In this document: positions 15,067 through 64,000 of the stretch, piece after piece | Layout: each line of letters begins with the position of its first letter | Numbering within the stretch: position 1 is the first letter of the stretch | Assembly: GCA_026936325.1 (NCBI GenBank) | Contig: JAPTHN010000001.1 | Span: 128,999,138 to 129,063,137 of the forward strand | DNA: 64,000 nucleotides | From: Platynereis dumerilii | Taxonomy: Eukaryota > Annelida > Polychaeta > Phyllodocida > Nereididae | Direction of reading: 5' to 3' | Notes under the pieces: generated by a model | Databases searched by the model: none | Told to the model about the DNA's origin: nothing | Seen by the model: the letters and a program-made list of their open reading frames with translations, nothing else | Position numbers and translations under genes: made by a program

Positions 15067-15083
15067 TCCCTCCTTTCCTTTAG
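15067..15083 (-). other. polypurine tract of the Gypsy element
   Basis: On the element strand this reads CTAAAGGAAAGGAGGGA, directly adjoining the LTR. It is the expected primer for second-strand synthesis in this family. Confidence 0.85.
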
Positions 15084-17860: not shown

Positions 17861-17867
17861 TTTCCAT

Positions 17868-18770: not shown

Positions 18771-19166
18771 GACGGGAACTGCATTAACAACAGAAGTTGA
18801 CGGGCCAATTCGGAGCAAGTCAAGTTCGACAGCTGTTTTTCTGCCAAGAAGAGGAACGTCATTTCCTTCGACAACAAGAAATTCTGTGATAACTGTATTG
18901 TCTCTGCAACTCACTGGTAACATAGCATAGCGAAGCACTTTGATCGGAGCGGACTGGTACGGACGGATTGTGCGGTTGCATTCTTGAAATTGAATCTTAC
19001 TAGCGAGATTCTCAGCGACATCAGAGTTAATGATGTTACAAGATGCACCACTGTCAATAAGCACTTTCACTTGTAATCCAGCAATTTTAACTTCTTGTGT
19101 AGGCAGTTTGTTACTACATGCAAATGCAAAGTCATCATCACTGTCAGAGTCAACATTGTTGTTCAC
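18759..19166 (-). CDS. pol: Gypsy protease part
   Basis: An aspartic protease domain is recognised from VKVLIDSGASCNIIN, in which DSGAS is the active-site loop, with a later VPLLGRKTAVELDLLRIG block. In this family the enzyme cuts the Gag-Pol precursor inside the particle. It sits directly downstream of the gag zinc knuckles in element orientation. Fossil coding region. Confidence 0.88.
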   Translation of the reverse strand: MNNNVDSDSDDDFAFACSNKLPTQEVKIAGLQVKVLIDSGASCNIINSDVAENLASKIQFQECNRTIRPYQSAPIKVLRYAMLPVSCRDNTVITEFLVVEGNDVPLLGRKTAVELDLLRIGPSTSVVNAVPVTDT

Positions 19167-19199
19167 ACATCGAACAGATTCTTGTGGTTTCTTGCGATT

Positions 19200-20115: not shown

Positions 20116-20134
20116 TGTTTCTCAATCAATTTTA

Positions 20135-20147
20135 ATCCTCGTCGCCA
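20135..20147 (-). other. primer binding site, tRNA-Ser type
   Basis: One base inside the LTR the element strand reads TGGCGACGAGGAT. From memory this is complementary to the 3' end, including CCA, of animal tRNA-Ser(GCT). Members of the mag clade are known to use tRNA-Ser, which supports the family call. Confidence 0.75.
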
Positions 20148-20148
20148 A

Positions 20149-20297
20149 TGTAATGGTTAGTTAATGTGAATAATGTCCAAGAAGAAATGACAGACCATTC
20201 AGTTCAGTCGACCATGCTTTATTCCAGTCCCGAATTATACCACAGATGGCGCCAATGTGCGCTTCTCGAATATCACACTAGGGGGCCAGATATTACA
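20149..20297 (-). repeat. LTR of the Gypsy element (5' LTR in element orientation)
   Basis: 149 bp with TG..CA ends and one difference from the copy at 14918-15066. The host sequence resumes at AAAAACATGG. Confidence 0.96.
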
Positions 20298-25100: not shown

Positions 25101-25699
25101 CTCTTTAATTCACAAGATAGTCAAAATTTCCAATTTTGTTTCCAGTCAAATGATTCCAGAGAGCTCCCTTGATCCAATAATTATTGATGATTTTCTTCTC
25201 AAGAAAATGTCATTTGTCTGTTGTCAGCAAAAACAAACACATATATTTGGTGTAAATGACTAGGGGTTTTAATAATAACAATAAGTAATTTGGTATACAA
25301 ATGAAATTGTTTGTGATACAAATAGATTGGAAAATCGAGTACATTTGTATACATGAGATAATATGCAAGATGGACAGTCAACAATGGCTGAAAGTCCTAT
25401 ATTGAATAGAGAATGTAATTAACCCCTACCATTACATTTATGATTAATCTAAAAATACATTATGTATATTTTGATCATGAAAAATATTACAAATACGGTT
25501 GAAATATGAAAATACATATGATACCAATACTAATACACTTGTGGTAGCATGTGAAACATGGCCAAAGGCTGAGGAGGCTTAGAAATGTTGAAGTGCAAGG
25601 TGAGTCAGCTGCTGCCACAAGAGAAAGAGAAAAGGAGGACAAAACAGGTTGTGATATGACAAATTGACAAATAAAACAGTGGTGAAGTCACTGTCAGCA

Positions 25700-26790
25700 T
25701 TGCGGAGATACATCGACTAATGACTACTGGGTCATCCAATCGTGTTGAAAGTTTGTGCGTGAATAACAGGAATTGGGTACATATACATATGTAGAATGGT
25801 TTAAGAGATGGCATGCTTCATTCAGCAATGCTTTGTAATAAACAATCTCGATTAGATGGGATCGCCTGATCTCGATTTGATTGGATCACCTGACAAGTTG
25901 TACTTTATTGTCACATGGTAGATTGTTGTTATGATGGTGGGTGTGTTGGTACTCGCAAGTGTGACAGATGAAGATTCACTGCATTGAGTGTTATAAATTG
26001 TTGTCACAGTGGAGGTGTTGGTAGTCCATATAATCTGAAAGATGAATATTCACTGCAAAGAGTGTGGTAAAGTGTTGTCACTGCAACGAGTGGTAAATTG
26101 ATGTCACAGTAGGAGTGTTGGTACTCCAAAGTGTGGCAGATGAAGATTCACTGCAATGAATGTGATAATTGTAAGAACGATCTGTTGTTTTATGAACAAA
26201 TTACGATGAATGATTTCGTAATGTGATAACAGCATTTTTCCTAATGACTGCTTGGTCATCCAGGATGCTGCTGAGTATCGCAAGATGGTAATCCACGGAG
26301 AAAGTAAGGGAAAGGCACTTTTGGGACAGCACATAATAATGTAGTAAAGTGGATGCCCGCATTGTTTCCCAATGACTGCTTGGTCATCCGGGATGGGGCA
26401 AGTGATTTGATATAGTAATCCATGGAGCAGTGAGTGCAAGGCACTGTTTGGCACATAATAATCGTACAGAACAATTAGTGAAGCACAAAATAACTGTGGT
26501 ATAGTACAGCTATAGCACAGAATAAGAACCGTAATGGCAGTAAAATGGATACCCGCATTGTTTCCCAATGACTGCTTGGTCATCCGAGAAGTGGGTAAGT
26601 GACATGTTATGGTAATCCATGTGTAAGTAGGTCCAAGTAACTTTGTTGGCACAGAATAATTATAGTGGTAACCAATGTAATAGTTCGCAGGGTTATTGAA
26701 ATACAGTCATGACCAGGCGAATAAATCATGATAAGTAATACTGTGTGACCAGCTGTTTTCGAATGACTACTGGGTCATCCCAGAAGTGGT
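25700..26790 (+). repeat. purine-rich degenerate array with hairpin cores
   Basis: Two unit types alternate. One carries ATGAC and GTCAT around a 6-bp loop (TACTGG or TGCTTG) at about 25719, 26243, 26371, 26567 and 26763. The other carries CACT and AGTG around GCAWWG near 25978, 26051 and 26081. The larger unit at 26230-26650 is about 110-190 bp and includes GTAATCCAYGGAG. Frames of up to 182 codons on the minus strand are this array read in one phase. Confidence 0.7.
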
Positions 26791-28835
26791 AATTGGCACA
26801 TCAGAAATGAGTGGGAATTGGCACATGAGAAATAACAGGGGTTGTAGTACCGTTGAATGGCTAAAAATTATGATGGGAATGAAATGGACGGTTATAAGCT
26901 AATCCGATGTGATGTCTTCTGGCACATACGTGAGTGGAGTGGACTGAGTAGACGGGATTGGGATCCAATAGGATAATACACAATAGGTGACTAGTGATGT
27001 GAAGTTGAGGGGCCCAACGCCCTGGGTTGGGCTGTGACCAGCTGACGGATTTCCATCCACCGATGTGTCAGGATCGTCTCCTTGGTTCAGGTGCCGAAGA
27101 CGATACTAGTGTATGAATGAAAGCATGGTGGTGAATAGGGTGGCCTTTACTGAGGAATAATGCCCTGTCTAGTCGTGGGTGGATGGGAAGGTATGTCATG
27201 AGTGGACTGTAGTAGGACACCAGCCTCCTGATTGGAGGCATGTGTGTACCTGGATAGATGGAGAGTAGCCTTGAAAACGCGAGGAATCAGGATTGGTGCT
27301 GGTAGGTAATGGCATGCAGCGGTGTTTCAGTCAAGAGTACCTCACTCGCTCTGAGGCATGCGTCATACATCACTGTGGACATAGGAGAGTAAGGTAGCAA
27401 GTGAAAATGAGACAAAGTGCAGTATGGTGAGGCGGTGAGGCGGTCAATAGGCCTAGCAGTACTGTGCTGGAAATGGGAAGATATCTATCGTGGGAGTAGA
27501 TATGAAAGTAATAAGGAGTTTTATAATGTTGAGATAAAAAGGTTGTAGGCAATGGAGTAAGAGAATCAAAGGTTTAGGATGTGGACAGGTGACAGCTTAA
27601 GATAGGAACAGAGTAATTGAGATAAAACAGATGGAAATTAGCATTGTTAATGTAATATTGGTGAAGGTAGGATGTTTAACAAGTGATATGTGACCTGGAG
27701 AAGGTGGAATTGAATACAGAGGAAGTATTAGTATATATGAAAAGTTTTATGTATGTAACCTGTCAAGGGATGTGGATGATGATGGTGTAGAACATGAGAG
27801 TTGTGAAGAACGGGAGTGTCAAGACGAAAACTAGAAGGCAGGAACAGGATCATGATAAGTTCCTGTAAGGAATAAGAAAGGTATATATTGATTGAAATGT
27901 GGATAAGCTAGGATGTTGGTGAAGGTTATGTGTTGATGGTTAATAATAAAAGGTGAATATGATTACTATGGAAATTGAGAAATGATATGTGGTATAGTGA
28001 AAAGTTGTACACAAGTGATAATAGTTTACTGACAGTGTTGGTCACTGCAAAGAGAAAGAGTGTATGGAATAGGAAACTGTAAAGTGTACCAAGAAGTTTG
28101 GACCACCTTGGGTCCGGCCAATAGGATAGTGTAGTGGTTATGTGATTGGTATAAGTAATAGATGGGAAGTGTGTGGTCTCCGTTGGGTTGTCCCGATGGG
28201 AACATGGATGCGGCCCCCTCTTGAAGGCACATGTGAAAGAAAAGCGTTGCTGCCAGAATACATCAGGTTGGTCTGTTGGGTGGGGTGTCTCATTCTTATT
28301 ATTGCTCCCTAAATGAACCGTGCAGGAGATATTTGTCATGGCCGGCTGAGGCAAACCCGGAGGTGCACCTGAAGTGTGCCCTGAAACAGCAACATGAAAT
28401 AGGAAGTATTGAGAGTATGAATGAGATGTGGTCAAAGTAGTGTACGAATTAGAAGCAGATAACATGAATTGTATTCGATTTAGAAACCGTAATGTTGGAA
28501 ATGAATCTGAGAAGTGATTGGGCCAATACATGTATTGTAAGATGTATAAGAAAGAGTGATTGTACTTATCTTAGTTGGCTGGATGAGGCTCATTCATGAA
28601 ATATAAACCTAATCCCTGATGTCGATGCCTGAAGGAAAGGCTACTAAATAAATGGTAATGTGTGGTGTCACTGAAACTGAAAAGAGTTGTAGTTGAGGGA
28701 CATGCTGTGCAAAAAATATGGCATGTAAGAATGGTAATGAGAAGGAAGAGTAATTGACATGAATGGTTTGAGGATACAGTTTACTTATCTTAGTAGTCGT
28801 GGGTGAGGAATCTACGTGGACTAAGAACCACTAAC
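26791..28835. other. purine-rich stretch without a recognised gene
   Basis: Strong strand asymmetry (G, A and T on the plus strand) continues, with no clear unit. A 201-codon minus-strand frame at 27926-28531 has low-complexity H, T, S, L composition and no family motif, so I do not call it a gene. Confidence 0.45.
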
Positions 28836-29610
28836 GGGTATTATAGTCCACAACTGCAGAGGGTGTGGAACCACTGGGAAGAGTAATGGCGAACCACTGG
28901 AAAGCATGTTGAGTTGAACCACTGCGTAGTATGTGAAGATGGACCACTGGAACGAGTCTGATGGATAACCACTGGAAAGAGTGGAATATAGAACCACTGG
29001 AAAGAGTGTAATGTTTGAACCACTGCTAGGAGTGTTATGCAAAGCGCTGTAAAGAGTGTTGAGTTGAACCATGTTGAACCACTGAAAAAGAGTGTAATAT
29101 TGAACCACTGAAAAAGAGTGTAATATTGAACCACTGCAAAGAGTGTTATATTGAACCACTGCTAAGAGTGTAATATTGAACCACTGCAAAGAGTGTAATG
29201 GTTGAATCGCTGCAAAGATTGTAATGGTGAAACCATTGCAAAGAGTATAAAGTTGAACGGCTGTAAAGAATAAAAGTTGAACCACTGCAAAGACTATTAT
29301 GTTGAAACACTGTTACTATAATGTTGAACCACTAAAGGGGTGTAATGGTGAACCACTGCAAGGAGTGTAATGGTGAACCACTGCAAAGAGTGTAATGTGA
29401 ACCACTGCAAAGAGTGTAACGTGAACCACTGCATAGAGTGTAATGATGAACCACTGCAAGGAGTGTAATGTGAACCACTGCAAAGAGTGTAACGTGAACC
29501 ACTGCATAGAGTGTAATGGTGAACCACTACAAGGAGTGTAATGGTGAACCACTGCAAAGAGTGTAATGTGAACCACAGTAAATAGTGTAATGTGAACCAC
29601 TGCAGTACAT
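28836..29610 (+). repeat. satellite, ~23-27 bp unit GAACCACTGCAAAGAGTGTAATG
   Basis: About thirty units in tandem, most homogeneous at 29330-29560. Nearly every unit has CACT and AGTG around a 6-bp loop (GCAAAG most often), so each can form a small hairpin. The unit shares its core with part of the array at 25.9-26.1 kb. Open frames of 97-154 codons across it are artefacts. Confidence 0.92.
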
Positions 29611-31259
29611 GAAGAGACACCCTGTGGATTGGGACTAATAGTAAATGTGGCCCACAAAATGAGGTCACAAAACGAAATACATGTTCTAGGAGGTTCTACA
29701 AGAGCTTACAAGCTGTTAAAGGAGTGCACATAAACATGAAGCAATCATTGAAATGATAGGATGAAGCAATAGACATTATAGAAACCAAATGTTAAAATCT
29801 ACAAACATGTGAGCACATTGAACATGTTGAAGCAAGTCCAAACAATGGCTGACTCCAGAAGCTGCAGCAGGCCATGTGGTTTTCCTGAAACATGGGAATA
29901 GCACCGAAAATAGGAAACTTTGAGGATCCAAGTTTGTCTTGTATGTCCTTAGAAAATCCATGGTGTTAGCGAACTGGGTTGTGGAAGTAATCCTGTAGCA
30001 GAAGCAAAATAATTAAAGAAAATATTGACAGAAAGTTGTCAATGTATGATGTTTGGACTTGCTGAAACTGGAATGGGGTCATGACCTACTTGGGGTCATG
30101 ACCTACTTGGGTGTCATGTACCCAGCAAGTCTTAGTTTTTGCTGACCAGACAAATGATCTTTTATAAATAAAAATAGCATGCAATGCATGCATCGGGTCC
30201 TTGGTCTGTTTCAACAAGTTGGGCCTCTTCAATTTTCTACCAACAATCTATCAAGTTAGGTATAAGAAAGCAGTACATTGTGACTATGCACAAGAGGGCA
30301 GCATAGTCCAACTTTTGGTGTGTATACAGAAACCAGTTTTTGTGTGAAGTGCTGACAGCTCAGAAGAAATATGTTGAATAGAAGAAAATTTGAGCACTGA
30401 TAAGCACAATATTGTAGCCAGGGGTGCATAAGCACCATCTTGATCACAAGGGCATATCTGTTGGGGTTGTCATTTTGTCTGTGAAATGTTTTAGTGAGTA
30501 CACCAACTTTGCCTGTTCACAGGAAATGAAGCTGACGACAATGGTCTTGGAATGAATTCCAAGGACCCAAAAACTCTTTTTTCATTCAATTTTTAGAATT
30601 TTCTGTATTACTGTAACTTGTCTTGAGGCAGAATTCAGATGTGAAGCTGACCCCACCAGAAAAAACTGTCAGATATATTATTTAATTTTATTTAATTAAT
30701 CACTGTCAATGAACTTTCTGGAGACTCCCATCAAAAGGACCAGAATGGAAATAAGAGTAATCTTTATTGTGTAATCCTACTGTTTCATTTTTTGTGAACA
30801 GTGAATCAATTCAAATCAAATCATAAATGACTTACAAAATAACTCCTAACATACTGAAGAGGGTATATACCATAACTCTCCAAGGGGGGTTCGCCCTAGA
30901 CAGAGGCGGAAATTAATCCTAAGAAGAAGAAGAAGGGTCATGTGACCTAACATGGCCACCGTATGAATGTTGGATTTATTTTTTGATGAAGACTTTTACA
31001 GCTGCATTTTGGAATAATAAGCTTAAGAATGCCTGACAGGTACCGAAAATTATTTATTAAAGTGTTTGTGCACATGTCTGAATAGTTTTTTTGTGGTTTC
31101 CTGTCCATTTCAGGCCAGCAGAAGCGCCGCAGTTAGGTCAATTTCGGTGCTCACGAATTTTAACAATGCGGGGACCTGTCAAATTTCGTCTGAAATGATG
31201 GTTTATTTAATTTCGTGTAGCATGTATGTAGCAATTATTTATTTATTAGGTGTAGGAGG
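29611..31259. other. unannotated stretch
   Basis: No gene or bounded repeat is recognised. Small (AAG)n near 30920 and a doubled GGGGTCATGACCTACTTG near 30076-30112 are the only structure seen. Confidence 0.45.
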
Positions 31260-37535: not shown

Positions 37536-38901
37536 GTCGGAAGTTATGTCATCAAAAGTTGTGTATTTGTCTGTAGTTAGGAGAAAACATTTGAATGGAT
37601 TTGCAGGATGAGGTGAGTAAATTGTCTTGTTAAAACAAGTAACATCAGGGCTTCACTCTGCTGAATTGTTGTCTACTGATTGAGAAGATCAACCTGGGAT
37701 ATAATGTTCTGGAGTTCTGCGCTTAATATTAATTACTTTGAATAAAATGAATATATATGTGCAAATAAATTTGTCACTTGATCATGTTGATTTCTGATTT
37801 GGACTTTCAGATATATAGATGCCTGAAATTCTGCCCCTAGGCTATCCCAGTCTCCTCTTGATTAGAAGAATGGAATAGAAATTTATTTTCAACATCTACA
37901 TAAATCAATAGCAGGACAACATATAGTGAAATGTTATATAATGATTATCCCTGCCTACAGCCTTTACACTGTGTACCGTTTGCTCTATGCGAAGTGACCT
38001 AGTTAATCATAACATCTTAAATTTTAGACCAGAAAGCAATGTAATTACAATATAACATAGCCAGTATGCTGTATTTATGTATCAGAAATCTTGATGTAAA
38101 ATTTCAAGCTTTTAAAAATATTTAGCAATCAAAAGATTTGGTGATTCTAGTAAAAAATGCACTAAAAAATACTAAAACTGCCTAATCTCCCAGAAAACTT
38201 AACTGATTGATTCCAAATTTTTTATATGTATTGTGTATACTATAATACAGCATACTGGCTATATGGCAACATTTGTTGCTTGCTCTATATATGAAAACTG
38301 CAAAATGTAAACAAAGAAAATCCCTAATTGGGTCACTTGGTTGGTACACAGTGTTTAGGTGTCCAGTGGCCCTTCGTTCAACAAATTAAATGTGAAAAAG
38401 AAAAATTCGGACTCACATCAATGGGTTTGATTAATGTGGTATCACAATTTTAAAAAACAGTCAGGTCATTGGTGAGCTGTGGCTAATAACCTAAATGTTT
38501 GACTGTAGTTTTCCGGTCTTGTTATTTTCAGGCATCCTCGTCTGACCTGGTGGATACCTCATGCAGAATAAAAAAACAATTGGAATTAATCTGAGCTTGC
38601 TGGATGCGGTGTTTAATTGTTCTTTCTCGTTGGGCTTACGCCTCATTGTCGCCAGCCCAGAAAAATGAATGGATCAATTAGAATAATTAAGCCCATTGCT
38701 AGAAAAACAAAATCACAGCAGTGCGCTTATTCTCAAACACCTGGATTATTTCACAACAAGTCTACGTAAAAAAATGTAGTACAAAACGATTTTCTGGTTG
38801 GAAAATTAATCAGTAGCTGCGACTTTTATACTTGACTCAGGGCTTACGATTATGTGGAAAAAAATCTACGGGACCATTGTTGGAGGAGTATATAATTTCT
38901 T
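37536..38901. other. unannotated AT-rich stretch
   Basis: No gene or bounded element is seen. Confidence 0.5.
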
Positions 38902-40975
38902 CCTGCAGTTCTGCAAAAAAATTGCAGAATTCTGCAGTTCTGCAAAAAACTGCAGAATTCTGCAAAAAATTGCAGAATTCTGCAGGAAACTGCAGAATTC
39001 TGCAGTTCTACAAAAAAACTGCAGAATTCTGCAGTTCCAAAAAAATCGGCAGAATTCTGCAGTTTCAAAAAAAAACTCTGCAAGAAGCTGCAGAATTCTG
39101 CAGTTCTGTTACTCTGGTTACTGTTTCTCTGTTACTTCCTGCAGTTTATTGCCATGCATCTTCAAAGTTCAGACCTCTCTGACATGGGGCTTGCCGCTAC
39201 CAAGGAAACGTGGTTTGGGTGATTGTTGTATGAGGGATCGGGGTTTTTGGCAGTCCTCTGTCACTGCAGTGTTTCTGAAAGGTTTCTGCAGCAAAATCTG
39301 TAATTCTGTAGGAGATATGCAGCCTGGGAGGTTTTATGCAGCTCTGCAAAAAACTGCAGAATTCTGTAGAAAACTGCAGAATACTGCAGGAAGCTGCAGA
39401 ATTCTGCAGTTCTGCAGCTAACTGCATGATTTCTGAACTTCTGTTACTTCCTCCAGTGTATTGCATCTGTACAGTTCAGACCTCTTTGACATTGGGCTTG
39501 CCGCTACCAAGGAAACATTGATTTGGGGGGTTGTGGTTTGGGGGGTTGGAGTTTTGGTAGTCCTCTGTCATTGCAGTGTTTCTGAAAAGTTTCTGCAGCA
39601 AAATCTGTAATCCCGTAGGAGATATGCAGCCTGGGAGGTTTTATGCAGTTCTGCAAAAAACTGCAGAATTCTGCAGATAACTGCAGAATTCTGCAAAAAA
39701 GTGCAGAATTCTGCAATTCCAAAAAAATCTGCAGAATTCTGCAGTTTCAAAAAAAACTCTGCAGAATTCTGCAGTTTTGCAGCTAACTGCATGATTTCTG
39801 ACCTTCTGTTACTTCCTCCAGAGTATTGCATCTGTACAGTTCAGACCTCTTTGACATTGGGCTTGCCGCTACCAAGGAAACATTGATTTGGGGGGTTGGT
39901 TTGGGGGGTTGTGGTTTGGGGGGTTGTGGTTTGGGGGGTCGAGTTTTGGTAGTCCTCTGTCATTGCAGCGTTTCTGAAAAGTTTCTGCTGCAAAATCTGT
40001 AATCCTGTAGGAGATATGCAGCCTGGGAGGTTTTATGCAGTTCTGCAAAAAACTGCAGAATTCTGCAGAAAACTGCAGAATTCTGCAAAAAAGTGCAGAA
40101 TTCTGCAAAAAAGTGCAGAATTCTGTAGTTCCACAAAAATCTGCAGAATTCTGCAGTTTCAAAAAAAACTCTGCAGGAAGCTGCAGAATTCTGCAGTTCT
40201 GCAGCTAACTGCATGATTTCTGAACTTCTGTTACTTCCTCCAGTGTACTGCATCTGTACAGTTCAGACCTCTTTGACATTGGGCTTGCCGCTACCAAGGA
40301 AACATTGATTTGGGGGGTTGGTTTGGGGGGTTGTGGTTTGGGGGGTCGAGTTTTGGTAGTCCTCTGTCATTGCAGCGTTTCTGAAAAGTTTCTGCAGCAA
40401 AATCTGTAATCCTGTAGGAGATATGCAGCCTGGGAGGTTTTATGCAGTTCTGCAAAAAACTGCAGAATTCTGCAGAAAACTGCAGAATTTTGCAAAAAAG
40501 TGCAGAATTCTGCAAAAAAGTGCAGAATTCTGTAGTTCCACAAAAATCTGCAGAATTCTGCAGTTTCAAAAAAAACTCTGCAGGAAGCTGCAGAATTCTG
40601 CAGTTCTGCAGCTAACTGCATGATTTCTGAACTTCTGTTACTTCCTCCAGTGTATTGCATCTGTACAGTTCAGACCTCTTTGACATTGGGCTTGCCGCTA
40701 CCAAGGAAACGTTGGTTTGGGGGGTTGTGGTTTGGGGGGTTGGGGTCTTGGTAGTCCTCTGTCATTGCAGCGTTTCTGAAAAGTTTCTGCCGCAAAATCT
40801 GTAATCCTGTACGAGATATGCAGCCTGGGAGGTTTTATGCAGGTCTGCAAAAAACTGCAGAAATCTGCAGAAAACTGCAGAATTCTGCAAAAAAGTGCAG
40901 AATTCTGCAGTTTCAAAAAACTCTGCAGGAAGCTGCAGAATTCTGCAGTTTTGTAGCAAATTCTGCAGTTCTACA
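38902..40975. repeat. complex satellite, ~300-400 bp unit with CTGCAGAATTCTGCAG subrepeats
   Basis: The landmark GAGATATGCAGCCTGGGAGG recurs at about 39312, 39618, 40010, 40417 and 40812, giving unit spacings of about 306, 392, 407 and 395 bp. A partial unit lies to the left. Each unit has two parts: a block of subrepeats of the perfect 16-bp palindrome CTGCAGAATTCTGCAG joined by short A-rich spacers, and a unique-looking part with GGGCTTGCCGCTACCAAGGA and TTTGGGGGGTT runs. Because the subrepeat is self-complementary, both strands are open and encode the same short words (LQNSA, AEFC, CRILQ). The frames of up to 189 codons are therefore not genes. Confidence 0.93.
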
Positions 40976-40979
40976 AGGT

Positions 40980-41423
40980 AGCAGTTTGTGGAATGACATT
41001 TTTGCTAGCACACAGATCGCCGAAAAAAGTGCCGTACGGCAAAAAGAAACAATGACGGACAAAGACTGACTAATAGACCTGGTTGCAGAGTATCTGAAAC
41101 TTTTTTCGGAATGAAATTTGGTTGAGAATTGATCGAGCAGAGAGGCAAAACGTCCATGGAAGTTTATTTTTATAGAGCACTGTCAGCAGTTTATAAAATG
41201 ACATTTTTGCGAGCTGACCGATCGCCGAAAAAAGGGTGGTATGGCGAAAAAAAACAACGACGGACAAAGACTGACTAGTGTAGTCAATAGACCTGGTTGT
41301 CGGGTAACTGAAACATTTTTCTGAATGAAATTTGGTTGAGAATTGACCGAGCAGAGAGGCAAAACGTCCATGGAAGTTTATTTTGATACAGCAGTTTGTA
41401 AAATGACATTTTTGCGATCCCAC
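40980..41423 (+). repeat. ~205-bp tandem duplication, 2.2 copies
   Basis: Units start at GCAGTTTRTRAAATGACATT near 40980, 41187 and 41391. Each contains ATCGCCGAAAAAAG, ACGGACAAAGACTGACTA and GAGCAGAGAGGCAAAACGTC. It directly abuts the CTGCAG satellite. Confidence 0.88.
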
Positions 41424-50050: not shown

Positions 50051-50261
50051 AAAACAGGATTCCATGAAATGAATCTATTTGTCTGAGGCCACCCAGCAAC
50101 AATATCTATTTATAAACTGACCCCAGGTCACATGGTGGGGTCACATGACTGACCCCTGATTAACCCCATTCTTATTTATTCTGTCAACAAGTTGACACAG
50201 TTCAATTGTTGGTCTCACATTATTATCAAAATATATATTACTTATTCACAATTATCTTTTT
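50051..50261 (+). repeat. 211-bp direct repeat B, copy 1
   Basis: Runs from AAAACAGGATTCC to ATCTTTTT and matches 57130-57340 at all but about three positions. It contains GACCCCAGGTCACATGGTGG and the hairpin GTCAACAAGTTGAC. Confidence 0.93.
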
Positions 50262-51342
50262 GGAATTACTTACACATTACCGGGATTCATACAGGAGTAC
50301 AGTACACCTTACTATGGAGGCCCCAACAGCTCTTGTTGTGGGTCATTCCTTTCCTAAAAGATGCTCTAAGATGGATAGACCACCATTTTTGTTGTTCAAT
50401 TTGACCCATTTTCATGTCAGGACCACATGTTATAAATATTCCCTGAATGTTCATTATCCACTTCTTTGACATGCTCCTATACTTTGTGACACTAATTTCA
50501 TCAATTTCACAGGATTATTTCACTTTATTTGCTCTAACCAAGTGATGACAGCAAGTTTGTGGGTCCAGACTTGCCCATCGGCTTGTAGTTCTCTTAATAT
50601 CCACCAGGTCCCTCAGACTCCCACTATTTACAACTCCTGCCCTCTGGCAGACAGCCAACACATCACCATTGATACTTCCAACACTCCATCTGCTACTCTG
50701 ATTATCATACCATACTCCCTCCTCCCAACATCAATTTTTAAACACTCATTAGTGTATTAATTATCATGTTTACAGCCTTTCAGAAGGCCATACAACCCAA
50801 TTTATGTAACAATAATGTTTTTACTATTGTTATTTTTCTATGACTTTCTTAGTTCACAGTTTATTTAATCACATTAATCTATCAATTTATTTTTATTTTT
50901 TTCATAATCCAACCTCGGATCTCCTATTATTTATACAATTTGTGAAATTCATTGATGTTCTGATGTAATCTGCTTATTATTATTTCAAAGTAATCACGTG
51001 TTTTTGATAAATACTTTCAATATCCCAAATAATTGTCATTTTATATGTTGAAAATGCCGCATATCGGATTACAAAATTTGAAAAACCACATGTCACACAA
51101 CCATGGACACGACACCAAGGCTTTTCAACCGTCGGATTTTTTCTTAGGCCACTTTGTCACAATTCCCAATGATTACATTGGTTACACCTTCTTATAGTTA
51201 GACTCATCTAACATTCACCAATAATTTTCCCTTCCAGGCCTCACAATTAACAAGATCTCTAACATTCTTGGCCGACAATATCCATTTTGGCCTCCAATTA
51301 TCATTGCATATCTCATTTTCATGAACACACAATTTCACATTC
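50262..51342. other. unannotated pyrimidine-rich stretch
   Basis: No gene or unit structure is recognised. Confidence 0.45.
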
Positions 51343-51516
51343 AATTCTTGATTCACATTCCATCATATTATTACCCCAAACACTTTCTTTTCAGGCATAC
51401 TTTTTCATCAATTCTTGATTCACATTCCATCAGGCATACTTTTTCATCAATTCTTGATTCACATTCCATCATATTATTACCCCAAACACTTTCTTTTCAG
51501 GCATACTTTTTCATCA
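51343..51516 (+). repeat. local tandem duplication
   Basis: ATTCTTGATTCACATTCCAT followed by a TTACCCCAAACAC block and AGGCATACTTTTTCATCA occurs twice, with an extra partial copy in the middle. Confidence 0.85.
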
Positions 51517-51639
51517 TATCTTAACTTGTGCCATCAACTATTACCAAAATTGTGCTCATATCTGATCAGATATACAACTACTCTCATGCCAAGGAATTTT
51601 TATCATTTAATGGATATTCTCAATACCCTGTCAATTCAC

Positions 51640-53230
51640 CCAGCTTCTCACTGCTGCTAATGGATCTTATTCTTAAATCAATACTCAATACACCATTGAT
51701 TAAGATTAATATAATCTTCCAATGGCTTTATTATTACTACTGTTAACATAATTTATTACTACATTAATGGATCAACACTCCTGTCCATATATGACAGTTT
51801 CTCACTCCTGCTCATCATCATTACATGAATTTATTAATACCCCGTCCAAGCACCTTACAGACTTCATTATTACATGATACGTTTCATAATTACGAGAACT
51901 TATTAATACACCTTCAATCATTATAGATTCGATTATTATATGTTTTCTTGATACACTGTACAATGTCAATTCCTGACAGCTTATTACATCTCCTTATAGA
52001 TCACATAAATTATTTTACCTCAATCTCAACTCTTGACAGCTTCTCACTGCTGCTTGCTAGTGCTTATACATTATTATCATTAAATAAATTAACCTTTTAC
52101 ACTAAGCAACCTGCTAACACTTCTCCATTACATGAACTTTATTTATACGCCCCGAATTTTGCTTATTATTATTATATGAAAATGTTAGCGCAACATCAGC
52201 TATTGACAGCCTGCAACGTCAATTATTGACAGCGTCACATAGCTCCTAATAGATGTTGTAATAACAAATAATTTCACTACACCACCAATTCCAGACAGCT
52301 TGTCCCTGCTGCTAATTCATTCTATCATTACTTGCATTTTTGCCTAATACTGACAATTCTTAACATCTTCTCACTGATGCAAAAGGACTTTATTTATACG
52401 TCATATAACATTATTAAATATTTAACATTATCATTACATCATTTAACACTTCCCAACATCATCAATTAGTGGCCTTCTCACAGCTGCTAATGGATATCAC
52501 TAATACTTGAATTTAGTAATGAATACCCCACAACCTACCGCTACTCATTGCTGCTAATTTTATCAGCATTAAAATGACTTTATTACTACGTCACCAATAC
52601 TTGCCAGCTTCTAACTCTTACAAAAAATTTCACTATTTTCTCAACATATCTCTCTGCTGTTAATCGATTTCATCAATGCATACACTTTTTATACTGTCAA
52701 TTCTTGACAGTTGCCTAATGTAACAAATGGATTTTACTATTACATCGCTTCATTAATGCACGATTTATCAGTTTCTTACTTCTGCTAATATATATTATTA
52801 GCTTCATTATTATTATGTGAATTTGTTAATACAATGTCAAGTCCAAAAATCTTTCCTTTGTTACTAAAGGACCTCAATACATCAGTTCATCTATACATCC
52901 TCGATGGGTGACAACCTGTCAAAGCTATTAATAGATGCTATTCTTTACATGAGAAGCTGGATGCACCATCCACTCTTAACAGCAAACCACTGCTGCTATA
53001 CAGATTTAATATAACATGAATTTATCATATACGCTGACAATTTTCACTCCTTTTGTACCTCCAACTGACTTTTCTCATACCACTTGGCTTATAAGTGCTG
53101 CACATCAGGTTATCACTGTAATGTCCAAAGGCTAACATGGTCCATCGTGTAACATTTATCATTGATACAAAATTAATGCCAAACATGTGTGCTGAGCTTG
53201 TCACTGCTCCCAATTTATTTATATTTTATA
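51640..53230 (+). repeat. degenerate array, ~100-bp unit, GTCAATTCTTGACAGCTT core
   Basis: Imperfect units of TGACAGCTTCTCACTGCTGC followed by TAATGG and AT-rich sequence with ATGAATTTATTAATAC recur, for example near 51785, 51962, 52028, 52210, 52293, 52440 and 52697. ACTGTCAATTCTTGACAGT near 52697 forms an 8-bp stem. The array grades into the shorter, cleaner units that follow. Confidence 0.65.
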
Positions 53231-54930
53231 TTTGACAGCTTATCACTGCTGTAAAATTAATTTACCACTCCTCCGAATAACAACAGAGCTTATCACTGCT
53301 GCAAAATTATCAAAGAGCTTGTTACTGCTCAAAAATGTATTTATTTATCATCCTACTTGTGCCTTGGAGTTAGTCATTGCTGCAAATTACTCCACCAGCC
53401 CACTGTATTTACTGTCAGCTTACCACAGCTGAAAATGAAACTTAGAGCTTGTCACTGCTCAACACATATTTTACCAGTAATACGTTACTGTTTGCCATTT
53501 ATTCAAATGACACTTTACATGTATCTTCTCACTTTTGCAAAATTAATTCATTAGTCCACTGCATACATATAAATATATTCTTTTGTCAGCTTATCACTGC
53601 TGCAACTTGAATATATTGAGCTTGTCACTGCTCAAAAAATCTATTCGTAAGATACTAGTACCTTCTTGGATTTGACAGCTTGCCATCGCTGTAACTGGAT
53701 GTCAGTCAAGCTCACTGCCTACATTAAAAGATGAGTATAATTGCATATATATATATATGTATATATAATATTTTTTTACAATTATTTGTTAATTTTAATC
53801 ATATACTCAAAACCATTCTCATTTTCCCCCTTTTTAATAAACAATACCATACAATTTTTACTGACTCAACAATTTAATTTGTAAAATCTCTTCCCAACAC
53901 AGCCTTATTACCTGTCTAATTTTTTCAGAACCATGACGATCAAAACAACGACAAGACTTGCCAGGTATTCGCCGATCGACGCTGAATATGATATCCCCAC
54001 CCACACAACACCACTTGTCATTGCTGTAAATGAAATCATCAGTCCAACGTGCCAGCTTGTAACTACTGCAACATGGATGTAGAGCTTGTCACCGCTCGAA
54101 ATACACCAGCTTGTGTCTAAAAGCTTGTCATTGATGAAAATGATGTTTAATATACAGCTTGTCACTGCTGCAATAGAAGATCATTAAATAGCTTATCACT
54201 GCTACAATTGACGATTAATATACAGCTCGTCACAGCTGCAAATGATGCTTAATAAGCAGCTAGTCACGGCTGCAATTTCAGATTAACATACAGCTTGTCA
54301 CTGCTGAAATTGACGATTAAAATACAGCTTGTCACTGCTGCAAATGATGTTTGATATACAGCTTGTCACTGCTGCAATTTAAGATTAATATACAGCTTGT
54401 CACTGCTGAAATTGACGATTTAAATACAGCTTGTCACTGCTGCAAATGATGTTTAATATACAGCTTGTCACTGCTGCAATTTAAGATTAATATACAGCTT
54501 GTCACTGCTGCAATCGACGACTAATGTACACCTTCTCTTTGGTGAAAACTATGATTCATATGCTCCCTGTTACTGCAGTAAAATATTTTTATCATATACA
54601 CCTTGTATACAGCTTGCCACTGCCGCAATTGTTATTTAATGTACAACTTGTCACTCCTACAAAATGATCTTTCATATACAGCTTGTCACTGCTACAGATG
54701 ATGTTTCAATCTACAGCTTGTCACTGCTGCAATTCGTGTTTACTATACAGCTTGTCACTGCTGCAAAAGCTTATATTTAATATGGGCCTACAGCTTGTCA
54801 CTGCTGCAACTGATGTTTGATATACAGCTTGTCACTGCTGCAAATTATATTTAATATAGGCCTACAGCTTGTCACTGCTGCAACTTATATTTGATATACC
54901 GCTTAATCCCAACTGGCAGACAGGACTGCC
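53231..54930 (+). repeat. hairpin satellite CAGCTTGTCACTGCTG, ~33-37 bp unit
   Basis: About 25-30 units have a 4-bp stem around the 8-base loop TTRTCACT. Most have CAGC/GCTG. Units near 53315, 53445, 53618 and 54082 instead have GAGC/GCTC. The region 54130-54530 is most homogeneous. It is interrupted by unique sequence (about 53710-53960) that is itself part of a duplication. Confidence 0.9.
53659..53963 (+). repeat. ~300-bp direct duplication D, copy 1
   Basis: From CACCTTCTTGGAT-like sequence through CAGTCAAGCTCACTGCCTAC and a (TA)n tract to AGAACCATGACGATC. It matches 54942-55301, so the hairpin satellite between them lies within a higher-order unit of about 1.28 kb. Confidence 0.88.
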
Positions 54931-54941
54931 GAGTACATCAC

Positions 54942-55301
54942 CTGTCCTAGCACCTTCTTGGATCTGACAGCTAGCCATCGCTGTAACATGGTTGTCAGTC
55001 AAGCTCACTGCCTACATTAAAAGATGAGTATAATTGCATATATATATATATAATATTATATTACAATAATTTATTAATTTTAATCATATACTCAAATATT
55101 CTTTATATATAATATTATATTACAATAATTTATTCATTTTAATCATATACTCAAATATTCTTATTTTCCCCCTTTTAGTAAACAATACCATCCAATTTTA
55201 CTGACTCAACAATTTAATTTGTAATACCTCTTCCCAACAGAGCCTTATTACCTGTCTCATTTTTCAGAACCATGAAGATCCAAACAACGAAGAGACTTGC
55301 G
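54942..55301 (+). repeat. ~300-bp direct duplication D, copy 2, with internal doubling
   Basis: Copy of 53659-53963, lengthened by a 60-68 bp tandem doubling of the TA-rich part with ATCATATACTCAAATATTCTT (about 55033-55160). Confidence 0.88.
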
Positions 55302-55369
55302 TACGAAACAACACACCAGGTCCGAATTTATCATTAATGGCGAGCCTCTCAATTGACACCTTTTTTCAT

Positions 55370-56040
55370 CAAGGTAGCCCAGAAGCTGACAGGAAGCTAA
55401 CACTCGTACAACAGGTTATCACTCCATTTAGTCCATTACGTGTATTCCACCAGGTAGCCTAGAAGTTGCCAGGAGCCAAACATGTACCCAAAAACACTGG
55501 TTATCACTCCAGTGTAGTATTTTACCTTATCTCGAATCTTATTGCATCACCACTTTCGTCTTCCATCAGGTAGCCCAGAAGTTGCCAGGAAGATAACACT
55601 CGTACAACTGGTTATTACTCCATTTAAGATAACAACTGGTTATTCCTCCAGTGTATATATATCATTAACTCTTTAGTTTTTGCTTTCCATAATCAAATTT
55701 GGTTATCACTCCAGTGTACAGAATAACTCTATCGTCTTCCACCAGGTAGCCTAGAAGTTGCCAGGAAGCTAACAACTGGTTATCACTCCAGTGTATATAT
55801 ATCATTAACTCTTTAGTTTTGGCTTTCCATAATCAAATTTGGTTATCACTCCAGTGTACAGAATAACTCGTATCGTCTTCCACCAGGTAGCCTAGAAGTT
55901 GCCAGGAAGCTAACAACTGGTTATCACTCCAGTGTATATGAATATTAACTCTTTACTTTTTAATCCAACTTGTTATCACTCCAGCTTTTATATTAACTCT
56001 CTTGTCTTCCACCAGGTAGCCTAGAAGTTGCCAGGAACCT
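55370..56040 (+). repeat. array of GGTAGCCTAGAAGTTGCCAG units with CTGG/CCAG hairpins
   Basis: GGTAGCCYAGAAGYTGMCAG occurs six times, near 55374, 55453, 55570, 55745, 55886 and 56015. Between these are nine copies of GGTTATCACTCC, usually as CTGG, TTATCACT, CCAG; the one near 55495 has an extended ACACTGG/CCAGTGT stem. Two adjacent 142-bp stretches (from about 55627 and 55769) are nearly identical, indicating recent tandem growth. Confidence 0.88.
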
Positions 56041-56888
56041 ACATCACTATCTTATTATATAATCCAAGAGATAGCACAGATCTTGCCAACCAGCAAAATT
56101 TTTTACCCAAATACTTGTTCCACTTGTGTGTCTGTAGTTTAATACTTTTATCCCGATCAAGGAAACTAAGACATTACTCACCGATTGGCTGTCACTACAA
56201 TATACAACTGACGAGTAAATTTTCATCCATCTCTCTATGTATCTTATCAATGTGGATCAACTACATCTCAATCCACTAGCTTGTGACCATATCATATTTT
56301 CGGTAAAGTCATAACTGCTCAATTGTTTATTGTTACATACTGTTTTCAATTTACCATCAATACATGTATCTTCGTAGCACATTTATTGCCTCAGTGCTGT
56401 ATCTAATTTTACATACTCATGTAAACACTTAACTAACCTCATATCACGAGGCACCACAGTGGCTCCCAACCACCGTTGATAATTTTACATACTGTTTTGC
56501 ATATATATTTTCTCACATATGTGTTATATATACTAAACTTCTTTTCTTTTATATCGTAAACTTGTGTGGCCTCCACCACATCCTCCACTTTCTAACATAT
56601 GATTTATTGTTGGCTTCCACATTTGTAATTAGTCCACTGACAGCCACACATACATATTACTCAACCTACCTTTATATCGATATATCAAGTAGTACTTTTA
56701 TTAATGGAGGTGTGTGTACACATCTCGCCTTCTACATTGTATTAATCGTGCATGTCTGCACCTGTCTGCACCTGTCTATTCATGATTCTGTTTCCACTAG
56801 GGACCATACGACTTTAAAAATGAACTCACAGTTACTGTCCTTTATTATTTTCTTCTTATGGCAGCTGCTAAGCTCCCCTTAGCATTTT
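56041..56888. other. unannotated stretch
   Basis: Pyrimidine-rich DNA without a recognisable gene. A 106-codon frame near 56562 has no family motif. Confidence 0.45.
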
Positions 56889-57132
56889 GGCCATTATTCC
56901 ATCATAATTCTGCCATAAAATATCAACAAATAATTATATTTTCAACAATATACCTTTTTACCTAAATTAACCTAATTATTACTCACTATTGTATTCTAAA
57001 AATTTTGTTCACCCTCTCTTCAGCCGTTGTTGATGAGCTGGGTTCATTAAAAAATTTTTCTCTAATAAAGCACAGTACTGTGAGTTACACCAAAACTTTA
57101 CTCGTTTGTTGTGCTTGGGGTCTTGGGACAAA
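56889..57132 (+). repeat. 244-bp direct repeat A, copy 1
   Basis: Appears identical, base for base as read by eye, to 57405-57648. It includes the acceptor-like tract and the first ~105 bases of the possible exon at 57540, then passes into repeat B copy 2. Confidence 0.93.
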
Positions 57133-57340
57133 ACAGGATTCCATGAAATGAATCTATTTGTCTGAGGCCACCCAGCAACAATATCTATTTATAAACTGAC
57201 CCCAGGTCACATGGTGGGGTCACATGACTGACCCCTGCTTAACCCCATTCTGATTTATTCTGTCAACAAGTTGACACAGTTCAATTGTTGGTCTCACATT
57301 ATTATCAAAATATATATTACTTATTCACAATAATCTTTTT
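57130..57340 (+). repeat. 211-bp direct repeat B, copy 2
   Basis: Matches 50051-50261 with about three differences. It is sandwiched between the two A copies and shares a short AAAACAGG-type overlap with the end of A. Confidence 0.93.
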
Positions 57341-57404
57341 TCCACCACATCCCCACCTAACCACCCTCGATAATTTATACTACACTACTATTACTGTGAC
57401 CTGG

Positions 57405-57648
57405 GGCCATTATTCCATCATAATTCTGCCATAAAATATCAACAAATAATTATATTTTCAACAATATACCTTTTTACCTAAATTAACCTAATTATTACTC
57501 ACTATTGTATTCTAAAAATTTTGTTCACCCTCTCTTCAGCCGTTGTTGATGAGCTGGGTTCATTAAAAAATTTTTCTCTAATAAAGCACAGTACTGTGAG
57601 TTACACCAAAACTTTACTCGTTTGTTGTGCTTGGGGTCTTGGGACAAA
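57405..57648 (+). repeat. 244-bp direct repeat A, copy 2
   Basis: Identical copy of 56889-57132. This copy continues into the full open frame ending at 57784. Confidence 0.93.
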
Positions 57649-59160: not shown

Positions 59161-59640
59161 GGCCTAAAATCAGCTTTTTTTGTACATGAGACACCAACAC
59201 AAATTGGGATTTAAAATTTTTAATTATTAAAAGTAACTTGAACATTTGAAATGTTTGAAACAATATAATTGACAGTAATAGTAACAGATTAAAATTTAGT
59301 TAAAGATATAGCATGAAATTTAAGCTGAGTAATTTGAAAAGAATGGGTTAAGTTAGTTCGAGAAGAGATTTGATAATTGTGATGGGAATTTGATATACAA
59401 ATAGAAGGTTAGTAAATTTACACAATAAATGAGATGGTAAACTTAGTATCAGATAATTGTAATAGTCCTGGAAGGAAAAGAACATGTATCAGGTATTGTT
59501 ACATAAAGATAATACATATCAGTGATGAAATAAATGTCCATAGTTCATGTGTATCGAGTTAGGCCATAAGCCCATCGAGACGAAGACTCTCCTGACGAGG
59601 TGCACATGAACGAGGCAGTACGAAATCCCAAAGAGAGTCA
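59161..59640. other. unannotated purine-rich stretch
   Basis: No unit structure or gene is seen. Confidence 0.45.
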
Positions 59641-59673
59641 AGTGTACTCAGAGGCCCGAGGAGTACCAAAAGT

Positions 59674-60563
59674 GTCTACTCAGGAACCTGAAGTAGACAA
59701 CTGTTGTCTGCGGTTGTAGCGTGGAGGCCCCACTCAGGAACCTGAAGTGGAGCTGATGGATCTTGAAGGCCCTACCCAGGAACCTGAAGTAGAGACTGTG
59801 CTGGATTGATGATTCTTGGAGGCCCCACTCAAAAACCTGAAGTGGGGATTGATGCTTCCTGTAGATCCTATCCAGGAACCTGAAATAGGGGGATGGTCCT
59901 CTTGTATGTTCTGATTGAGACGACCTGCAAAGAGATATATTAAGCAGCAGTAAAATTCTTATGGTAAACCCATTTAAGTTTAGGTTGTCGACGATAGCGT
60001 ACATAGGTTTTGTCATCAGAAGTAGGACATATAACAGACACTGAGTGAGAGAGGGAGAAAGGTCAGGAAAACTGGAGCGCCAGAAGAGAGAAAGTGGAGA
60101 TTTGAATGAGCGTTGAAGTGCATAAAGTTGATTCATGGAACGGTAAGGGTAATTGATGAAGTTTGGCATTGAGCTGGGTGCGGGTTATCGACGATAGGAG
60201 ATTTATATAAAGACATTGAGTGAGAGATGGAGCAATGTCAGGATACTGTAGAGTCAGAAGAGAGAGAATGGAAATATGAAAAGTGGTTAAGTGTATAGGG
60301 TCGATTCAGGAAACGATAAGGGTAAATGATATAAACATTCGATTGAGGTAGGTAGTAGTTTGGATTGTGATACTGGGGCGTCGGGGATGTTAGGTCAGGT
60401 ATGTCCTGGTGTAATATATGTATTGGGACTGTGGGGACAAGATGGTGCGCTGTTCCGTTACCCAGAAGAGGCATGAAGGAGGTTCGAGTCGATGAATTGT
60501 ATTCTGCTGACTTGCTCAGAAGCAGAATGGCAAGGTGAGCCCAGGCAGGAACCTGAACTGGGC
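59674..60563 (+). repeat. hairpin repeats with constant loop AGGAACCTGA and changing stems
   Basis: Six hairpins were seen. Stems are GTCTACT/AGTAGAC (59674-59698), CCACT/AGTGG (59730-59750), CTAC/GTAG (59772-59792), CCCCACT/AGTGGGG (59823-59847, loop AAAAACCTGA), CCTAT/ATAGG (59867-59889) and GCCCAG/CTGGGC (60539-60563). The first five lie in a tandem array of about 45-60 bp per unit; the sixth is 650 bp downstream. The minus-strand frame of 173 codons across them is not a gene. Confidence 0.88.
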
Positions 60564-61440
60564 TGTCCTGGGTCTAGAGGCCGAAGAAGGTCGAGAAAAA
60601 GCAAGTATATCGGGGGTAATTTAACCTGGAATTGATAAATTTAAAGACAGGTGAAGTATGAAAGTAAGAGAACGTGGCGGAGACAGAGTGTCATGTGTGC
60701 AGATTGTTATTTAAGTTGAAGTCAAATTGGATTGGTGGCAATGATGTGTCATCCTTCAGGGGAGAAAATGGCTGGATTGAGGGAGCTGCATGTTGACCTT
60801 GTACATATGATAAATATATATTGGCAGTAAAGTCATGAAGTTGGGTGGATAGTAAAGTCATGAAGTTGGGTGGACCGGTGAGAATACTGGTTGCATACTG
60901 GAGATGCATCTTGACCTTGTACATATGCTGTAGATATGGGGGGGGATTGAAGTAAGACAGCCCGGTGGGAGCATTCTGGATTGACAAGAAAGCAAGGGAG
61001 TGATAAAATAGAGACCACAGCGTGTGCCGCCGCCTAGGGAATGGTAGTACAGCGGGAGATCTGGGAAAGAATCAGGTGGAATCATGGAAATGAAGAGGCA
61101 AGGGTGCCTGAGATGTCCAGTTCGAGTGGTGATGGGAAACTCATGGCTGATTAGGAGGCCGTAGATTATGGTGATAGTTGAAATGATTGGAGTGGTTGAA
61201 GGTGGAGAAAACAAGATTATGAGGATATTAACGGGAATGTCTGTGGAATTGAATGAGTGTAATGTCTGGAAGATCGAGGAAGGTTGAAAAGTCTGGTAAT
61301 TGCAGTTGAATTGAAGGAAAAAAAAAAAAAAGTCCACAAGCACGAATGAGGTATACTGGAATATGTGTGATGAAATTGGTCTGCAGTTGAATAGAGGGAA
61401 TGTCTTGAAGGTTGAGCGATGTAGGAGTCTGGTAATTGGA
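60564..61440. other. purine-rich stretch with small duplications
   Basis: AGTAAAGTCATGAAGTTGGG is doubled at 60827-60872 and TTGACCTTGTACATATG recurs at 60792 and 60912. Poly-A at about 61319-61331. No gene is recognised. Confidence 0.55.
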
Positions 61441-62420
61441 AAAAGAAAACACAGACAGAGTAAGTGATACTGGGAGATAAGAGTGAAATAAAGCAAAGAG
61501 GAGGATTATATATATACATACATATAAAGTGAATAGAGCGAATTAAAACACATAAATTGTGATAAAAATTCCACGTGCAAGAATGTGCAATACTGGAATA
61601 GATAAGGCGTAAGTGAACCCACACACAGATCGAGTGATACTGGGCAGATAAATATTCCACATGCAAGAATATGCAATACTGGAATAGATAAGGCGTAAGT
61701 GAACCCACACACAGATCAAGTGATACTGGGCAGAAATTCCGAATGCATGAATGAGCAAACTCGAATAAGTGTTAAGAAAAGTAGGAGGATGAAGTAAAGT
61801 CACTTCGACAAAAATATGGCCCACACACTGGATAAGTGATACTGGAAAGTGTCTCGGAGTAGTGGAAGAAATTAAGAGTGAAAGTGATAAAATAAAATAT
61901 GGCCCACACACCGGATAAGTGATACTGGGAAGTGTCTCGGAGTAGTGGAAGAAATTAAGAGTGAAAGTGATAAAATACAATATGGCCCACACACTGCATA
62001 AATGATACTGGGCAAAGGAGAAGTGAACATGTAACATGTAATATAAATGTCAAAAATGTGGAGAAAAAACGTAAGTGTAAGAGAAATAAATAAACCCACA
62101 CACTGAGGAAGTGATACTGGGCAGGAAATATTGACAAAGAATGAAGTGTAATTGTAAGTAGAATATTATGAATAAATGGAGTAGTCTTGAGTTGAGTGAA
62201 GTGATGTTCACGAATAATCATAGTGAGTAAGTAATCAAGGGATATGTATGGAAACCCACACACCATAGGAGGTGATAGCTGGGCTGAGAAGAGATGTCGT
62301 GGGGGGGGGGGGTCTTGAGTTGAATGAAGTGATGTTGAGAATAATCATAGTTAGTGGGTTTAGGAATATGTAAGGAAACCCACACACCATTGGAGGTGAT
62401 AACTGGGCTGAGGAGTTTGA
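61441..62420 (+). repeat. array with AGTGATACTGGG core, ~85-125 bp unit
   Basis: RAGTGATACTGGG or a close variant occurs about nine times (near 61463, 61630, 61718, 61828, 61917, 62004, 62110, 62266 and 62394) and once more at 63178. Most copies are preceded by CCCACACAC, so CCCA and TGGG bracket each core. Subarrays are visible: a doubled unit with ATTCCACRTGCAAGAATRTG at 61566-61730, and a ~90-bp unit with GTGTCTCGGAGTAGTGGAAG at 61810-61990. Confidence 0.88.
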
Positions 62421-62900
62421 TGGAGTAGGAAGATGATGTTCACATGGTTGGTTGATTCTTGAAGAAGGAGGATGAAGGCCAAATTGTTGTTTGATTGATG
62501 AAGTTTGGAATTGATTGAAGTCCACAGAGCACAATGAAGATAGCGATATGAAGTTGGCATGGTCGGTTGATTCACAAAGTAGGAAGGTGAAGGTACCACG
62601 ATGAAATTGGCATGGTTGGTTGATTCAAAAAGTAGGAAGGTGAAGTCCACTTAGGAAGATGAAGTTGTCATGGTTGCTTGATTGGTGAAGACGAAGATGG
62701 TGAAGTAGAAAGATGAATGAACACAGTTGATGCATGAAGTAGGAAGATGAGGCCCTGATGGTTATTTGATTGAGGAAACAGGAAAGTGAAGTTGACAAAG
62801 TTGGCTGATGGAAGATGCAGATGGTTGATGGATGGGTAGGAGATGAGGTCCAAGGATTTGGGTGGATAGTTGGGACGAAATGGCCCGGATGGGCAGTCAA
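62421..62900 (+). repeat. degenerate array, TTGGCATGGTTGGTTGATTC unit
   Basis: Units of roughly 35-60 bp combine GGTTGGTTGATTC, AGTAGGAAGGTGAAG and GATGAAGTTGGC in varying order. They are clearest at 62436-62680. Confidence 0.65.
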
Positions 62901-64000
62901 TTGTCATGGTCGGGAGGTTCAGCGATGAAGTGAGGAGATGAAGTCCCCTGTCCACACTAGCCGTTGACTGATGGAGTAGGATGACGAAGTCCAGACAGTG
63001 AGTTGACTGTTGGGGAGCAAGTGGAGTCCACAGACTTGGGTGATTTCACTGTGGGGAGATAATAGTAAAGTGGATTGATTGAGAAGGAGGAAAGTTAAGT
63101 GACACAATTGAAGAAGTTTAGGATAAAGAAAAGGGAACAGGAAGAAAGAGTGAAGTAAGTTCCACACACTTAAGAGAGTGATACTGGAATGTGTAGGAGG
63201 GAGGAGGAGGTAAATGGAGACTGAACAGATGTTAATCTGGGATAATGAACAGATAATTCGGGAGAGTTGGTAGACGAAGATAGTGGAGAAATGATTAGGA
63301 AAAGTAGCAAAATTGAAAGAGCAATGGACTTAAGCGCTGTGGAGGAGATGAGAAAGTGAAGAGTTATGGGTGACATGTGAGGAGTTCCGCACATGCTGTG
63401 TCAAGGATAGAGTGTAAGATTGAATATCGGAAGCAAGTACTAGTCAATTAAGTAGGGTAGAAGTAGAAATGGTGGTAATGGTGAAGAAGGGGGGGGGGTG
63501 AAGTAATGAATTTTTTAAGTAACTTCCAGGGGGGGTGGGGCAATGAAGAATGGAGGGTTTGTAGGTCATGAGTCATGTCCCAGATGCAGAATAGGGTACT
63601 GGTATGTAGGTCAGTCTGTCTGGGTCAGTGTAGGCTGGGGCTAACCTTAGGGTGGTGTGGAGAGGATTGGAGTAATGTATAGAAGAGATGAAGTGAAAAG
63701 AATGGTATGAATATAAACATCCAAATATATGGCTCATCATGTACAAAATTTTAAATAAACAAGCCTGAGGTGTAGAATAAGTGGGTAAATGAAAGCATGT
63801 ACGGGTGCCGCAGTGAATTGAGGTCAATCATAGTGAAGGAATGTGTACAATAGATAAACATATATATATGCTGGAAAGAGGAGACTGACAGTATGTGGCC
63901 TGTGTCCTTAGGATGAGAAAATTCAATTTAGAGTTTTGGCCTTGAGCATTGTAACAGCAAGAGGACGATCCAAGGTAAGTGGAGTAAATGAGAGCACGTG
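62901..64000. other. purine-rich stretch to the window end
   Basis: One further AGTGATACTGG core lies at 63178. Otherwise I see no gene or bounded element. G runs occur near 63490 and 63530. Confidence 0.45.

Follow-up and report, generated by a model that had tools for sequence, protein, structure and literature searches.

The locus considered here raises the question of why short hairpins built around a constant core should carry arms that differ from copy to copy and still pair. Six such copies lie in a non-coding stretch (59673-59891 and 60538-60564) of the window, by which we mean the whole 64,000 nucleotides of Platynereis dumerilii DNA that were analysed, and a preliminary description of the sequence had offered two readings: selection on secondary structure, or a correction process that copies one arm of a palindrome onto the other. 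As discussed below, the evidence leans toward a structured RNA, short of proof.

Six hairpins around a constant core

The exact 10-mer AGGAACCTGA occurs at 59682, 59736, 59778, 59874 and 60547, and the variant AAAAACCTGA at 59831, in agreement with the preliminary description. The core common to the copies, CAGGAACCTGAA, is unchanged in five of the six, the copy at 59830 reading CAAAAACCTGAA. Written as left arm, centre and right arm, and with no strand assigned, these hairpins (hereafter family 1) are:

59673-59699, copy 1: TGTCTACT-CAGGAACCTGA-AGTAGACA, with 8 bp outside the core
59727-59753, copy 2: GCCCCACT-CAGGAACCTGA-AGTGGAGC
59769-59795, copy 3: GCCCTACC-CAGGAACCTGA-AGTAGAGA
59822-59848, copy 4: GCCCCACT-CAAAAACCTGA-AGTGGGGA, with an altered core and a perfect outer stem of 7 bp
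59865-59891, copy 5: ATCCTATC-CAGGAACCTGA-AATAGGGG
60538-60564, copy 6: AGCCCAGG-CAGGAACCTGA-ACTGGGCT

The element originally taken for a constant loop, AGGAACCTGA, is indeed kept, but is itself palindromic (CAG-GAAC-CUG) and thus comprises a stem, a four-base loop and a one-base bulge. Each hairpin is accordingly layered, with three inner pairs (CAG/CUG) closing the loop GAAC, then the one-base bulge, then 5-8 outer pairs that vary per copy; overall it spans approximately 10 bp, with a four-base loop and a conserved one-base bulge. The arms are complementary as first described, but they are longer than had been noted (as much as 8 bp beyond the core) and include six non-Watson-Crick cells among 42. 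The 10-mer AGGAACCTGA occurs once more in the window, at 7191 on the minus strand within the reverse transcriptase ORF of a LINE, where its arms are unpaired; that LINE (7148-11048, minus strand) is nearly intact and has both endonuclease and reverse transcriptase ORFs.

While the core carries substitutions at only 2 of 66 bases, 22 of the 84 arm bases differ, and yet in the seven positions outside the core, beside CAGGAACCTGA, Watson-Crick pairing is found in 36 of 42 cells. Sliding the arms out of register leaves only 10-13 paired cells, and re-pairing arms among copies yields a mean of 26.7 pairs, with 36 reached in 2 of 720 pairings: the correct one, and the one that exchanges copies 2 and 4, which have an identical left arm. 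Five of the eight pairs have changed on both sides, which makes 10 double-change cells where shuffles give 3.5 +/- 1.6; the covariation score of 0.558 compares with 0.216 +/- 0.072 (0 of 500 shuffles reach it), although shuffle controls, here and for families 2 and 5 below, leave the relatedness of the hairpin copies in place. Eight further standard pair types occur over the eight pairs, so several separate two-sided changes are needed on any tree. When each copy is modelled as descending neutrally and independently from a perfect hairpin in a star tree, at the observed arm divergence of 26% per site, pairing of this extent has a P of approximately 5e-5, and the eight compensated cells were reproduced in 0 of 20,000 simulations. 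These results bear out the earlier claim that both arms change together beyond chance.

Further families in cytosine-depleted blocks

The hairpin families of the window all lie within three blocks in which one strand has 11.9-13.7% C, compared with approximately 19% elsewhere, falling to 4-8% in some 250-bp windows:

25250-29750, plus strand: block with strong cytosine depletion on one strand
50300-57600, minus strand: cytosine-depleted block (C approximately 0.12) containing family 5
59250-64000, plus strand: cytosine-depleted non-coding block containing families 1 and 2 and continuing past the window end

In the last of these, C is 0.06-0.21 per 250 bp and the GC skew runs from +0.44 to +0.53 from 60 kb onward. 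The blocks are rich in degenerate tandem repeats, Pfam recognised no protein family in the ORFs tested from them, and the only homology found among the three is one weak 40-nt match. The families other than family 1 are:

51639-55986, minus strand, family 5: loop AGTGA(C/T/G)AA (AGTGANAA), 36 loop-selected copies, 23 of them distinct
61332-63192, no strand assigned, family 2: 13 copies of (N)CCCA-CA-CACT-loop-AGTG-ATAC-TGGG(N)
25690-26800, plus strand, family 3: five copies (25720, 26244, 26372, 26568 and 26763), found by eye
28830-29610, plus strand, family 4: array of approximately 25-bp units, CCACT-GCAAAG-AGTG, a contrast case

A search of the whole window for loops of 7 or more bases that recur on differing stems, each closed by 4 or more Watson-Crick pairs, returned chiefly AGTGA(C/T/G)AA on the minus strand at 51.6-56.0 kb and family 1, the remaining matches being one palindromic-satellite loop and one poly-A loop. 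The copies of family 5 were chosen by the loop AGTGANAA alone, without regard to the stem, and their closing stems include CAGC/GCTG, GAGC/GCTC, TAGC/GCTA, CATC/GATG and CTGG/CCAG. Pairing is found in 81% of cells, with 17 double-change cells against 6.2 +/- 1.9 in shuffles and a covariation score of 0.495 against 0.204 +/- 0.045 (0 of 500 shuffles). Elsewhere in the window, 0 of 16 AGTGANAA loops adjoin a 4-bp stem. A covariance model of the family recovers more members on the same strand and in the same block, for example GAGC-GGTGACAA-GCTC at 54080-54099, and hardly any outside. Because this separate family of 23 distinct hairpins in the same window also covaries, the six hairpins of family 1 are not a lucky subset.

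In family 2, both the outer stem (CCCA/TGGG, GCCCA/TGGGC, TTCCA/TGGAA) and the inner stem (CACT/AGTG, CACC/GGTG, TGCA/TGCA) change while the asymmetric internal loop CA/ATAC between them is kept, with permutation P values of 0.002 for pairs and 0.003 for double changes. The unit of family 3, ATGAC-TRCTKG-GTCAT with an A/CC internal loop, was delineated by eye from five copies, too few for statistics; its outer stems likewise differ (CGA/TCG, CCT/AGG, CCC/GGG, and TGCCC/GGGCA vs TACCC/GGGTA). Family 4 was considered as another covarying family and rejected, as its substitutions mostly break the stem.

Selection, template switching and other possible origins

Covariation of paired positions beyond shuffles, one mark of a structured RNA, was found in families 1, 2 and 5, with the relatedness of copies only partly controlled. 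No open frame runs through the family 1 copies. Our preferred explanation, for which we put the odds at about even, is that the hairpin families belong to non-coding RNA as short stem-loop modules, their structure maintained by selection and their tip read by sequence. The copies, the covariation and the constant tips are established by the analysis; transcription, a protein partner and the preservation of pairing by selection rather than by a mutational process are inferred. Under such a scheme, stem-loop modules would have multiplied through tandem and local duplication inside the non-coding blocks, each copy drifting thereafter, with substitutions persisting mainly where the stem still pairs. 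The constant tips (CAGGAACCTGAA in family 1, AGTGAYAA in family 5 and CA/ATAC in family 2) would be read in the context of the stem, most likely by an RNA-binding protein. A constant tip, a kept bulge or internal loop, a changing but paired stem, the occurrence of all this in unrelated families and the decay of one family would all be explained by selection on a tip-recognised RNA stem-loop.

Strand polarity could tell an RNA from a DNA process, and as to which strand would be the RNA, the non-standard pairs lean weakly toward the minus strand. On the plus strand, family 1 departs from standard pairing by four A.C vs one G.U, the A.C cells corresponding to G.U on the minus strand, and in family 5 the departures on the minus strand are nine G.U vs one A.C, in both cases from few and partly related cells; the lean of G.U over A.C is toward the minus strand in families 1, 2 and 5 and toward the plus strand in family 4, again on few cells. 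If families 1 and 5 are both minus-strand RNAs, these RNAs would be of opposite base composition.

Several observations count against an RNA. On the plus strand, two of the six family 1 copies show no folding advantage over shuffled sequence, and family 4, though in the same kind of block, lacks covariation. No Rfam family scored above the covariance-model threshold, and relaxing E to 1 over 59.5-63.3 and 50-57.8 kb brought out none either. The bulk foldability of the blocks is unremarkable (mean z of -0.1 to -0.45 in 64-nt tiles), and the RNA claim therefore rests on the hairpin families rather than on bulk structure; nor do perfect hairpins per 2 kb show a consistent excess in the C-poor blocks.

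The main rival, which we consider possible though on the doubtful side, is a DNA process, either template switching during replication or gene conversion between the arms of a palindrome, by which one arm overwrites the other and pairing is maintained without selection or function. Template switching is documented to produce multi-base compensatory changes in hairpins (PMC8794818), several family 1 copies have adjacent changes in one arm that are mirrored in the other, and the window is rich in palindromic repeats, for example at 38.8-41 kb. This mechanism leaves unexplained, however, why cores stay constant despite diverging arms and why the one-base bulge and the CA/ATAC internal loops persist, and no repair is seen in family 4, whose hairpins decay in a comparable block. 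Template switching would be expected to invert the loop along with the stem changes in some copies; the inverted core CAGGTTCCTGA is carried by none of the plus-strand copies, but loop inversions are rare even among known template-switch cases (PMC8794818). The covarying arms on which both of the original readings were founded stand. Constant cores argue for selection, as do the bulges and internal loops, which survive when the stem to one or both sides of them changes; the weak strand polarity leaves room for the DNA mechanism.

Chance, with a few ancestral copies that happened to have different palindromic arms and were then amplified free of constraint, is in our estimation unlikely. The copies are related through duplication, family 1 has only six of them, and a scan of approximately 9,600 tests, covering all repeated 8- to 11-mer cores of the window in the inverted-complement orientation and three control orientations, showed that the family 1 permutation z of 3.77 is not exceptional, since nonsense orientations reach 3.5-3.8; six copies cannot yield a much higher z. 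Yet only five tests combined a z above 3 with pairing at 4 or more of the 6 positions, all of them from family 1 in the inverted-complement orientation and none from the three controls. The neutral star simulation gave P of 5e-5 for family 1, and two more families, 5 and 2, covary.

A non-autonomous mobile element whose RNA bears packaging or priming hairpins would account for the abundant local duplications and for the 211-bp direct repeats (50051-50261 and 57130-57340, 98.6% identical, with a TATAAATA box) that flank the family 5 block, but we hold this origin to be very improbable. The repeats show neither the TG..CA ends nor the visible target duplication by which an LTR element of the LARD or TRIM type is recognised, one of them belongs to a further tandem duplication, and none of the kind was found beside the family 1 block, whose far end lies beyond the window.

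Least probable of all is a coding remnant, in which a protein repeat (plus frame P-T-Q-E-P-E-V-E) would make the hairpin a by-product of its codons. In one or another plus frame, all six copies do read (P/S)(T/I/R)Q(E/K)PE(V/I/L), and the distances between the first copies, 54 and 42, are divisible by three; between copies, however, there are stops and shifts of frame (spacings of 53 and 43), and Pfam gave no match. Third codon positions hardly vary in the core, yet arm bases that pair with each other from different codons change together, a pattern that codons do not predict. A coding origin of family 1 is largely refuted. We also dismissed, on theoretical grounds, a palindromic site in double-stranded DNA that a dimeric protein would bind, as half-sites stay fixed in such sites and the arms vary here.

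Comparable systems and the surroundings of the hairpins

Bacterial CsrB is a protein-titrating RNA with many identical loops. The families described here resemble it in their constant loop on variable stems and their many copies, by analogy only, as CsrB is bacterial and the present host eukaryotic, with another loop. Closer in layout are the long non-coding RNAs Xist and Rsx, whose tandem-repeat modules, Xist repeat A among them, form hairpins separated by linkers (PMC8786293): short repeated hairpin units, intervening linkers, long non-coding sequence and several repeat families at one locus are common to both, while the stems here vary among copies and no sequence relation is expected. An Xist-like RNA would carry its hairpin modules within a long, spliced nuclear RNA that binds silencing proteins, and what the present locus shares with it is the anatomy of repeated hairpins, a likeness in layout only. 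A search of the literature on similar arrays found nothing closer than these Xist-type repeats. With template-switch hairpins in RNA genes the families share compensatory multi-base stem changes and conserved loops, but those cases are orthologous RNA genes of known function (PMC8794818), whereas the present copies are paralogous and lie in non-coding blocks. Searches of IMG/VR (families 1, 2, 3 and 5) and of GTDB genomes (family 5) gave no matches or isolated single ones, one per contig, never arrayed and on unrelated viral or bacterial contigs, which we take to be due to chance.

A more ambitious proposal, rather unlikely in our view, is that the blocks produce a modular RNA platform, that is, long cytosine-depleted non-coding RNAs that each carry several unrelated tandem stem-loop families and have no known relatives. 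On that proposal, at the same tentative level, proteins would read the tips, and the stems would be free to change provided that pairing is kept. More generally, covariation among tandem copies at one locus allows selection on RNA structure to be tested within a single genome, with no need of other species. Functional stem-loops would point to non-coding genes that are as yet unannotated and bear a readable tip code; stem-loops produced by template switching would warn that covariation alone is no proof of RNA function, a warning for which the decaying neighbour, family 4, serves as an internal control.

Outside the C-poor blocks the window contains a LINE, a Gypsy element and satellites, which mark the genome as eukaryotic, and several other features may be recorded. 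A similar stretch, ATGGCCAAA..GCT(A/G)AGG..CTTAG..CAGCTGCC, with a GCTAAG/CTTAGC hairpin, was seen by eye at 25560-25660 (plus strand) and 56890-56830 (minus strand), close to the upstream edges of two C-poor blocks; blastn gave no match for it at the E-value cut-off. By the minus-strand C-poor block lies a second pair of direct repeats (56889-57132 and 57405-57648, 100% identical), and the TATAAATA box of the 50051-50261/57130-57340 repeat has a plausible start approximately 30 bases on, towards the block. A satellite at 38810-41000, whose 407-bp higher-order unit is made up of CTGCAGAATTCTGCAG palindromes, is the most foldable part of the window, and a Gypsy element at 14916-20297 (minus strand) is young, with 151-bp repeats that are 99.3% identical.
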